From: Lachnospiraceae bacterium
Lineage (GTDB): Bacteria > Bacillota > Clostridia > Lachnospirales > Lachnospiraceae
Assembly: GCA_014804795.1 (NCBI GenBank)
Contig: JAAUZC010000053.1
Coordinates: 1 to 64,000, forward strand
Direction of reading: 5' to 3'
DNA length: 64,000 nt
Shown piece after piece: positions 50,730 to 53,280 of the stretch. The notes under the pieces were generated by a model. It ran no database searches, was not told where the DNA came from, and saw only the letters and a program-made list of their open reading frames with translations. The position numbers and the translations under genes were made by a program. Positions within the stretch are counted from its first letter, which is position 1. Each line of letters begins with the position of its first letter.

Positions 50730-50823
50730 AAATTCGCAATTAAATTTTAAAAACAAAAAAGAATAAAAAAATTTAAAAAATTTTCAAAAAATGTATTGAC
50801 AATTCGAAAGAGAGTGCTATAAT
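50730..50823 (+). promoter_or_regulatory. Very strong promoter with upstream A/T tracts
   Basis: TTGACA (50796-50801), 16 bp, TATAAT (50818-50823), both full consensus. About 60 bp of A- and T-tracts directly precede it, like a UP element. This is the sort of promoter seen on stable RNA genes. Confidence 0.85.
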
Positions 50824-50829
50824 TAAATC

Positions 50830-51545
50830 ATAAACAACAGAGAGAAAAAAGAAAAGGCGGTACGGTCCAATGAGAAGTTAAATCGAAACTGAATCATACT
50901 AAGATAAAGGTGGTACAGACCAATGGACAGGTAAAGTGGAAAAGAAAGACCTGAAAGAAAAAACGAAAGAGGTAAGGGCCAATGGACAGATAAAGTTCAA
51001 ACCCCGAATGATTATTAAAATAAAACATGATAAGGCGGTACAAACCAATGGGCCATTAAAGAGAATTCCGAATTGAATATAGCGAAAGCGGTATAAACCG
51101 AAATAGAGCAATATAAAGAAAGTTTTACAGTGAAAAGCAATAAGGGGAAAGCCGGGATCGGGATAGAAAGATAAGTAAATACGATAAAGCCTGATGAAAA
51201 GGGCAGTTCAGAAATGGATTGATGGTACAACGGTAAGAACCGATGAATATATAAATCATGAAATCTAAGCAAAGGAGGTACGGACCACCTAAAACATAGA
51301 CTTTAACCATAAAAGAATATGGATCTTGAAACAAGCTGAAGCGGACGAGTACATCTGAAAGAGTAACGGGAGAGAGAAGAAAACGAGAAGACGTTACAGT
51401 ACACAAGTACAAGAGTAGAGAGTATGGAAAGAATGCAGAAGACCAAAAATTACATATAGATCACTATAAGAAAATGGAGGGAAAACCATTGGACACAATA
51501 GTTTAGAAGAGGGTATTAGTCAGGAAAGATTAATACCCTCTCTTC
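50830..51545 (+). ncRNA. Unrecognised ~0.7-kb purine-rich RNA with repeated minimal ORFs
   Basis: The region has a consensus promoter, a terminator and no long ORF. It holds degenerate repeats of an AAGGNGG + GGT-NNNN-ACC + AATG block. The GGT..CC ten-mers begin at 50859, 50912, 50971, 51037, 51090, 51232 and 51277, with a weaker copy at 51479. In five copies the ATG is followed by two sense codons and TAA: 50870 (AGA AGT), 50923 (GAC AGG), 50982 (GAC AGA), 51048 (GGC CAT) and 51243 (AAT ATA). The copies at 51090 and 51277 have lost the ATG, although 51271-51278 is a perfect AAAGGAGG. Pyrimidines are rare: I counted 13 of 60 in both 50941-51000 and 51361-51420. I recognise no RNA family. It may act as a ribosome- or protein-binding RNA; that is inference. 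Confidence 0.6.
51504..51545 (+). terminator. Terminator of the purine-rich RNA
   Basis: AGAGGGTATTA (51507-51517) / TAATACCCTCT (51531-51541), 11-bp perfect stem, then CTTCATG; a T-run follows at 51560. Confidence 0.8.
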
Positions 51546-51675
51546 ATGTCATATAAACTTTTTTTATTTAGAAGGCTTTTTTTGTAGAAATTTGCAGATA
51601 AAAATGTTAAAATATACGCGAAAGCAATGAGCAGCACTGCGGGGATAGGTAAATACATACAGGAATGAGGATATT

Positions 51676-53280
51676 ATGAGAAAAAGCAAAAACTCAGAGA
51701 AAGAATATAGAAAAAAACATTTTTTTGCAGCAGACGATGAATATGATGATGACATTGATGACGATGAAGACGACGACGTTGATGAAGAAGACGATGAAGA
51801 GGATGATGACGTTGATGATGAAGATGACATTGACGATGATGAAGAAGATGATGACGATGAAGAAGACGATGACGACGATGTTGATGAGATAGAAGAAGAC
51901 GATGAAGAGGACAGTTGGAGCAGAGAGGATGAGAAGCGTGCGCGCAGGCGGTCACGCCGTATCAGAAACCAGATTCTGGCTTATGCAGTAGTAGTGATTC
52001 TGATAGGCGGTGCCTTAGGCGGTTTCTTCCTGGGGGGCAGAAAGCTTATTCAGAAATATCAGGCAAATAAGCGGGAAAAGGAGATACAGGAGCAGTTAGA
52101 AGCATTGGATAAGGAAGAGCCGGTTGTTGATATAACAGAGCCGACAGAAGAAGATGTCCAGAGTGAGGAACCGGCAGCGCTTAGTCCTCTGGATGAAATT
52201 GTGACGGCGCGAATTGCAGAAATGCCATTGGAAGATAAAGTTGCTGCTTTATTTATGATAACGCCGGAACAGCTTACGGGTGTAACCAATGTAACGAAAG
52301 CCGGGGATACGACGAAGACGGCGCTTACACAGTATAAGGTGGGCGGACTTGTCTATGCGGAAAGCAATATTACCGATGCAGATCAGTTGAAAGAGCTGTT
52401 GAAAAATACAGCGCTGATCGATCAGACACTGTTTTTGGCGGTGAATGAGGAGGGCGGAGAAAATTCCACGGTGGCTTCCAAACTTTCTGTGACAGAAGTT
52501 CCGGATATGGCGTCGGTAAACGGTGCGGATGGCGCTTATGAGGCAGGGAGTAATACAGGAGCCTATCTTGCAGAGTACGGCTTCAATTTAAATCTTGCGC
52601 CGGTTGCGGATGTAAAAATATCAGAGGAAAGTATTCTTGGAAACAGAAGTTTCGGTTCTGATGCAGGGCAGGTTGGCGAGATGGCAGCTTCCTATGTGCG
52701 GGGACTGACACAGATGGACGTCAGTGCCTGTGTGAAGACTTTTCCGGGGCTGGGGGCAGTGACGAAGTCTACAGCGGACGGCATGGCGGATACGCCGCGC
52801 AGCCTGGGCGAGATGGAGGCAGCGGAGTTATCTGCATATCAGGCGGCGATAAGCGCCGGAAGCGAGTTTGTTATGGTAGGGACAATATCAGCGCCGGAAT
52901 TGACCGGTGGTGATAATACGCCGTGTTGTTTCTCATCGTCTGTGGTAGGATTGCTTCGAAATAATCTGGGATATGATGGGATTGTGATCACAGGTGCATT
53001 GGATGAAGCTTCCGTGAAAGATTATTATACATCGGCGGAAGCGGCGGAAAAGGCTTTGCGGGCGGGAGCTGATATGATCTATATGCCTGAGAACTTTAAA
53101 GATGCCTATGAAGGGCTGCTGCAGACCGCGCAGGCAGATGAGGGATTACAGAGCCGTATCGATGAAGCGCTGCTTCGAATTTATCGTGTGAAGTATAAAG
53201 GGAGAGTCGCCATAGCATCCGGGGAAGAAATCGGCGGAGCGGAAGAAGGCGCCGGTGAGGAAAATATACCGGAAGAGTAA
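51676..53280 (+). CDS. Degenerate GH3/NagZ-like membrane-anchored protein
   Basis: 534 residues. Residues ~19-82 are almost pure Asp/Glu, followed by an Arg/Lys patch and one membrane helix (about 96-118), so the rest lies outside. Residues ~175-520 have the fold pattern of GH3 beta-N-acetylhexosaminidases: MPLEDKVAALFMITPEQLTG, NLAPVADV, ILGNRSFGSDAGQV, KTFPGLG, then GYDGIVITGAL and KALRAGADMIYMPENF. The catalytic residues are gone: the KHFPG His is Thr355, no DSH/DTH dyad follows, and the nucleophile Asp of the TDAL motif is Gly440. It is probably a binding or structural protein rather than an enzyme. It starts 130 bp after the RNA locus. Confidence 0.85.
   Translation: MRKSKNSEKEYRKKHFFAADDEYDDDIDDDEDDDVDEEDDEEDDDVDDEDDIDDDEEDDDDEEDDDDDVDEIEEDDEEDSWSREDEKRARRRSRRIRNQILAYAVVVILIGGALGGFFLGGRKLIQKYQANKREKEIQEQLEALDKEEPVVDITEPTEEDVQSEEPAALSPLDEIVTARIAEMPLEDKVAALFMITPEQLTGVTNVTKAGDTTKTALTQYKVGGLVYAESNITDADQLKELLKNTALIDQTLFLAVNEEGGENSTVASKLSVTEVPDMASVNGADGAYEAGSNTGAYLAEYGFNLNLAPVADVKISEESILGNRSFGSDAGQVGEMAASYVRGLTQMDVSACVKTFPGLGAVTKSTADGMADTPRSLGEMEAAELSAYQAAISAGSEFVMVGTISAPELTGGDNTPCCFSSSVVGLLRNNLGYDGIVITGALDEASVKDYYTSAEAAEKALRAGADMIYMPENFKDAYEGLLQTAQADEGLQSRIDEALLRIYRVKYKGRVAIASGEEIGGAEEGAGEENIPEE

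Follow-up and report, generated by a model that had tools for sequence, protein, structure and literature searches.

An independent RNA locus was found at positions 50796-51541 of the window, the 64,000-nucleotide stretch of Lachnospiraceae DNA that was analyzed. The RNA family to which it belongs, the conservation of this family and the conservation of its translation signals are the established part of this work. The function proposed for the RNA, the capture of ribosomes at sites from which no protein is made, is suggested by sequence evidence and was given a probability of roughly 40%. The family appears to be unnamed.

The RNA Locus and Its Genomic Context

The elements of the locus are collected in Table 1. 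The preliminary description of this DNA had pointed to a consensus promoter behind A/T tracts, followed by about 0.7 kb of purine-rich DNA without a long ORF, and both statements held: the promoter matches the consensus completely, and the transcribed stretch (~0.7 kb; 45% A and 24% G) lacks a long sense ORF. Of the 94 homologous loci that could be tested, 86 have a similar promoter upstream of the core. The promoter is also the ground on which the locus had been called strongly expressed, and the RNA would be abundant on that reading. Minus-strand ORFs of 70-95 aa were considered as genes and rejected, because the RNA alignment contained many frame-breaking gaps.

The product of the gene downstream of the RNA in the window (51676-53280) is membrane-anchored and has a long N-terminal stretch made only of Asp and Glu, which is followed by a putative glycoside hydrolase family 3 domain. 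A similar protein is encoded after the RNA at two further loci (L023 and L111). On the other side, the same divergent upstream gene, with a product starting MENLKIPEGY..., was repeatedly observed in Mediterraneibacter-type genomes (L041, L045, L052, L062, L086, and L096, among others); we take this product to be AsnA-like, that is, of the asparagine-synthetase type. The association of this gene with the RNA was not kept in other genera.

Table 1. Sequence elements of the RNA locus (positions in the window).
Element	Position	Strand	Remark
A/T-tract region, UP-element-like	50742..50795	+	seen in the sequence; putative function
Promoter TTGACA-16-TATAAT	50796..50823	+	12/12 consensus bases
Unit 1: SD + GGTACGGTCCA + ATG-AGA-AGT-TAA (Met-Arg-Ser)	50854..50881	+	
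Unit 2: SD + ATG-GAC-AGG-TAA (Met-Asp-Arg)	50907..50934	+	
Unit 3: SD + ATG-GAC-AGA-TAA (Met-Asp-Arg)	50967..50993	+	
Unit 4: SD + ATG-GGC-CAT-TAA (Met-Gly-His)	51032..51059	+	
Degenerate unit 5: GGTATAAACC, start codon absent here	51085..51106	+	
Fifth unit of the preliminary description: ATG-AAT-ATA-TAA at 51243	51230..51254	+	
Core: AAGCAAAGGAGGTACGGACCACC-CTAAAACATAG	51267..51299	+	most conserved element
GGACGAGTACATCTGAAAG segment + GTAACG...CGTTAC arms, between core and terminal ORF	51343..51397	+	conserved in genus alignment
Terminal mini-ORF: GGAGG + TTG-GAC-ACA-ATA-GTT-TAG (ORF 51489-51506, Met-Asp-Thr-Ile-Val)	51476..51506	+	
Terminator stem-loop, 14-nt arms, 93% complementary	51508..51541	+	weak U-tract in the window

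Distribution of the RNA Family

Each of the eight other genomes of the window's genus has a match to the whole locus, the best matches having 66-75% DNA identity, and shorter elements of it recur across Lachnospiraceae, the recurring block being centred on 51261-51298. When 84,980 species were scanned for AAGNAAAGGAGGTACRGACCACC, 98 stretches were obtained; the 80 of these 98 that were listed all belong to records of the Lachnospiraceae type, among them Mediterraneibacter, Enterocloster, Blautia, Roseburia, Claveliimonas, and Pseudobutyrivibrio, and a few of them are named no more precisely than, for instance, Eubacteriales or Clostridiales. With a covariance model of the core, matches were obtained in 62 of 299 genomes of the family, usually with one locus per genome, and there was no match outside Lachnospiraceae in samples of 295 genomes of the order and 391 of the class; this model is not fully sensitive, as several loci found by BLAST match the core weakly. 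A phage origin was rejected, the exact core being absent from IMG/VR. Promoter and terminator included, the RNAs of the family are ~210 to ~1,100 bases long.

A search of Rfam, with ROOL, GOLLD, OLE, and raiA included, had been suggested for the region from the outset, a hit that explains the repeats being named as refuting the preliminary reading, and no family matched it: only chance matches were obtained with Rfam 15 at gathering and relaxed thresholds, and 16 homologous loci gave nothing apart from a tRNA. A description of this RNA was not found in a search of open-access papers.

Two further observations were made while the loci were compared. In genome G005 (L011, contig C9), a relative within the genus, a second, weak DNA match to the RNA was seen at another locus (43 nt, E 9.6e-4). 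On the reverse strand of L174, at offsets 1658-1930, a 23-nt repeat of the type GCAGTAC-NNNNN-GTAATGT occurs about nine times, and in several copies a start codon is immediately followed by a stop (ATGTAA, ATGTGA, and GTGTGA); these repeats may be only a hairpin array.

The Terminal Mini-ORF

An SD (Shine-Dalgarno)-led ORF of 5-8 codons, with its stop codon no more than ~4 nt from the terminator stem, was found at 48 of 55 terminators, the terminators having been detected automatically in 55 of the 96 loci. Among 80 control terminators from the same DNA, only 7 were abutted by a mini-ORF (Fisher p = 2e-21). Before curation, most of the terminators that lack a mini-ORF appear to be hairpins picked in error. 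The terminator stem of the preliminary description is real, but a good U-tract, present in relatives, is absent in the window. The start codon of the terminal ORF mostly lies 15-25 nt from the stem, which is about the room needed by an initiating ribosome (the size of its footprint).

Counterparts of this ORF across the family show start, stop and synonymous swaps. In 41 distinct five-codon ORFs, the starts were ATG (24), TTG (14), and GTG (3), and the stops TAA (17), TGA (13), and TAG (11). Codon 2 was GAC, GAT, or AAC in all but two of them, GAC and GAT being used as synonyms, and Val was written GTT, GTC, or GTA. TGG was never seen at the stop position, where ~3.5 cases would be expected if bases were independent, a comparison that is descriptive only since the ORFs were preselected for a stop. 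Length and position of the ORF are kept while the peptide varies (MDSIV, MDEIV, MDNEM, MTEGFK, and MIEISG). Asp or Glu occurs in 47 of the 48 peptides and Lys or Arg in 3 of the 48, despite the A-rich RNA.

Loci found later by the hairpin or core models end in MDEVV, MDEIV, MDNEN, or MIEPVQQ, each followed by a stop; those of the hairpin model were fetched without reference to the ORF, and MDEVV, MIEPVQQ, and MDEIV stand before the stem. At one locus of the core model (L163) the terminal ORF is not closed. The terminal SD has a median of -10.6 kcal/mol, compared with -9.2 for 34 genes of the window; the 3' end of the host 16S rRNA was not found in the genus assemblies, and the SD match is a predicted one.

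The Start-Less Core

Family-wide, the core (AAAGGAGGUACGGACCACC) consists of a perfect SD within a hairpin GG-A-GGU-ACRG-ACC-A-CC, without a start codon; in the window this hairpin reads GG-A-GGU-ACGG-ACC-A-CC (51274-51289). Its conservation statistics are inflated, the loci having been collected by the exact core pattern. The core sequence AAAGGAGGU, with an SD of -13.6 kcal/mol (median), is followed by CCN at the position where the units of the window have ATG. In 51 of 63 cores a stop lies in frame within three codons after CCN, as it does in the window, the counts for the two other frames being 11 and 28, and the core may be derived from a mini-ORF unit. An outer stem of the core (AAUCUAAG/UAAGAUU) was tried and rejected, as covariation was absent. 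In loci of the Mediterraneibacter type, ~200 nt separate the core from the promoter, and the core is not at the 5' end; L162 and L163 carry two or three start-less core units consecutively ahead of the terminal element. The core and the terminal TTG ORF, which are the most widely conserved elements, had both been overlooked in the preliminary description.

Three-Codon Units of the Window's Genus

The repeats AAGGNGG-GGTNNNNACC-AATG that had drawn attention to the locus are present, with the reported spacings of 53, 59, 66, and 53. All five Met-X-Y-TAA ORFs that had been described read as stated, and four of the units were right; the fifth, at 51243, is weak and not conserved. Its SD reaches -3.1 kcal/mol, while those of the other units range from -8.7 to -10.1, and its ATG is missing in 2 of the 5 other aligned relatives of the genus, so that it is probably not a real mini-ORF.

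Start and stop are kept in the three-codon ORFs of the genus through changes of ATG to GTG (L004), of TAA to TAG (L004 and L010), and to TGA (L010), the GTG and the TGA both belonging to unit 3. Unit 1 retains its start and stop in 6/6 aligned genus loci, as MRS, MRK, or MRR, and unit 4 is MGH or MDH in the same number. Unit 2 reads MDR or MDK, with TAA and TAG swapped, and is absent in L005, while the orthologue of degenerate unit 5 in L003 is MGDIV followed by a stop. In the first 300 nt of the RNA of L010 (genome G004), unit 1 is tandemly expanded (MRK, MKK, and MKK), which indicates that units are gained and lost. Such extra ORFs (MRS, MDR, and MGH), ~50-66 nt apart, form arrays that are mainly confined to the window's genus; across loci, the spacing of neighbouring units is clustered at 46-69 nt and is mostly 49-56 nt.

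Conservation of the Mini-ORFs as Translation Signals

In the 96 non-redundant homologous loci, closure within nine codons of an SD-led start codon was found in 93 of 100 cases in frame, compared with 60 and 30 in the two other frames (p = 3e-8 and 2e-21), and 68 of 72 SD-led ATGs closed early, whereas among the ATGs of these RNAs that lack an SD 142 of 280 did so (p = 2e-13); near-duplicates were removed, and these counts and p-values treat related loci as independent. The make-up of bar-type minigenes, namely an SD, a start, no more than two further sense codons, and a stop, was found, with 33 SD-led units having three sense codons including Met and 5 having two.

The mini-ORFs look genuinely coding, because ATG, TTG, and GTG starts and TAA, TAG, and TGA stops interchange and codons change synonymously. 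The design of SD, start, few codons, and stop, whose loss in homologous loci was named beforehand as evidence against it, is conserved in the homologues with starts and stops interchanged. Non-productive SD-led mini-ORFs are thus a genuine feature, kept in evolution, of an independent RNA.

A Covarying Hairpin in Other Genera

In many genera, UGACGAGAAAG is the invariant loop of a covarying hairpin. Double compensatory changes were found in 8/8 tested stem pairs (64 cells, against 17.6 in shuffles), and the RNA thus contains a covarying helix, as expected of a structured RNA, in genera other than the window's; the hairpin was not detected in the window or its genus. Loci with the hairpin include L018, L019, L021, L041, L060, and L075. 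Its position depends on the genus: it lies upstream of the core, downstream of the core, or inside the terminator hairpin, the last being the case in Pseudobutyrivibrio-type loci. This hairpin looks like a module for the recognition of a protein or an RNA.

Possible Functions of the RNA

The titration of ribosomes or initiation factors, the sponging of an RNA-binding protein, or a signal made of released peptidyl-tRNAs had been put forward as possible functions in the preliminary description. We propose that this stand-alone Lachnospiraceae RNA, with its own strong promoter, would act in trans, and that its conserved elements would be dead-end ribosome-binding sites. One such site would be the perfect SD in a small hairpin without a start codon. 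The last would be the SD-led ORF of 5-8 codons, where an initiating ribosome would fit between the SD and the terminator stem, and in the window's genus up to five further SD-led ORFs of two or three codons, ~50-66 nt apart, would each have room for about one initiation complex. The RNA would recruit 30S subunits or initiating ribosomes that cannot start or that terminate almost immediately. Initiation capacity would then be captured and recycled with no protein made, which could buffer free ribosomes or initiation factors. The recruitment of ribosomes to sites without protein output is the simplest reading of the conserved function; we infer that ribosomes occupy the RNA and that holding them is its purpose. 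On a slightly more tentative reading, it would be the first natural RNA devoted to the holding of initiating ribosomes, a decoy present throughout the family that unites a start-less perfect SD with dead-end mini-ORFs and tunes the levels of free 30S or of initiation factors in Lachnospiraceae. Against ribosome capture, a single chromosomal copy would need very heavy transcription to matter in the presence of thousands of ribosomes. Moreover, the presence of the covarying UGACGAGAAAG hairpin in many genera points to an additional function that depends on structure, the acidic terminal peptides avoiding Lys and Arg hint that the peptide, or drop-off behaviour, matters too, and the arrays of three-codon ORFs are mainly confined to one genus.

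Purine-rich DNA is expected to contain many SD-like words and early stops, but the origin of the pattern by chance, as A-rich sequence with fortuitous SDs, is refuted by the conservation, frame, control-terminator, and start/stop swap tests and has a negligible probability. The main alternative, somewhat less probable than ribosome capture, is a structural RNA armoured by ribosomes. Its SDs and mini-ORFs would park ribosomes near the ends and thereby block 5' and 3' exonucleases, the functional part lying elsewhere, for instance in the UGACGAGAAAG hairpin or in a core hairpin that binds a protein. The resemblance of the core to a STAB-SD, the terminal ORF set against the terminator, and the covarying hairpin with its invariant loop, placed inside the terminator hairpin of Pseudobutyrivibrio-type loci, agree with such protection. 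However, the core of Mediterraneibacter-type loci is too far from the promoter to be 5'-terminal, protection alone needs neither 5-8 acidic codons nor arrays of three-codon ORFs, and no copy of the hairpin was detected in the window's genus.

It is improbable that the signal consists of short acidic peptides (fMDSIV and similar) or of dropped-off peptidyl-tRNAs. Asp or Asn is kept at residue 2 through GAC, GAT, and AAC, Lys and Arg are avoided in an A-rich RNA, and the toxicity of minigenes via peptidyl-tRNA drop-off is established (PMC8708949, a review). Nevertheless, the peptides differ widely (MDSIV, MDNEM, MTEGFK, and MIEISG), the internal ORFs give only dipeptides and tripeptides (MG and MDR), and a receptor, exporter, or processing gene is not consistently adjacent. 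We give slightly less credence again to a sponge for a protein recognizing a GGU-ANRR-ACC hairpin at ribosome-binding sites, in the manner of CsrB for CsrA. The motif is indeed repeated almost identically, its loop included. Its weak point is that the rest of the genome shows no enrichment of unit-like sites, with 64 sites counted and 60 for a reversed control pattern; all three exact matches of the motif fall within the locus, one near-match is read opposite a coding sequence, and a motif shared with target mRNAs, as in the CsrB type, was not found. In addition, a sponge would not require starts and stops to be conserved as codons. Finally, a ribosome on the terminal ORF might block the terminator and let transcription enter the downstream gene, as in a leader-peptide attenuator. 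The closeness of the stop codon to the stem (no more than ~4 nt) and the co-directional orientation of most downstream genes fit this mechanism, which is nevertheless very improbable because different genera have unrelated genes after the RNA and, in 25 of 74 cases, the gene is on the opposite strand; a conserved downstream gene on the same strand was not found.

Lachnospiraceae count among the most abundant gut bacteria of mammals. If ribosomes do occupy the RNA, it would represent a new control of translation capacity or a new means of RNA protection. Even without a decoy role, there is a family of five-codon ORFs, conserved with swaps of starts and stops, that is too short for the length cut-offs commonly applied by gene finders.

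Comparison With Known Systems

ROOL, GOLLD, OLE, raiA, and the lncRNA of L. salivarius are likewise long stand-alone RNAs with their own promoter, and what they do is at best partly known. That of L. salivarius is restricted to one species and located on a megaplasmid (PMC5643018). Unlike ROOL, GOLLD, OLE, and raiA, the RNA described here has no match in Rfam, shows little conserved global structure, and has conserved translation signals. Dual-function small RNAs also combine a structured element with a short ORF, but they encode proteins of tens of residues, whereas the ORFs found here have 2-8 codons and a sequence that is not constant.

In the cry3A mRNA, the STAB-SD is a strong SD that lacks a start codon; it binds 30S and stabilizes the transcript (PMC3997798, a review). 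The core shares with it the perfect SD lacking a start codon, but not the location at the 5' end of a stabilized mRNA, as no protein ORF follows and the core is often internal. Furthermore, the STAB-SD belongs to the 5' leader of a protein gene, whereas this RNA encodes no protein and carries the SD inside a conserved hairpin.

The bar minigenes of phage lambda and other two-codon minigenes consist of an SD, a start, very few codons, and a stop, with potential peptidyl-tRNA drop-off (PMC8708949). They differ in codons and lengths from the ORFs found here, which mostly have 3 or 5 codons. Unlike the bar minigenes, the sites of the present RNA stand in a dedicated chromosomal non-coding RNA found across a whole bacterial family, with up to six or more of them in one RNA in addition to the start-less core. 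The design of SD, start, few codons, and stop is nonetheless common to both.
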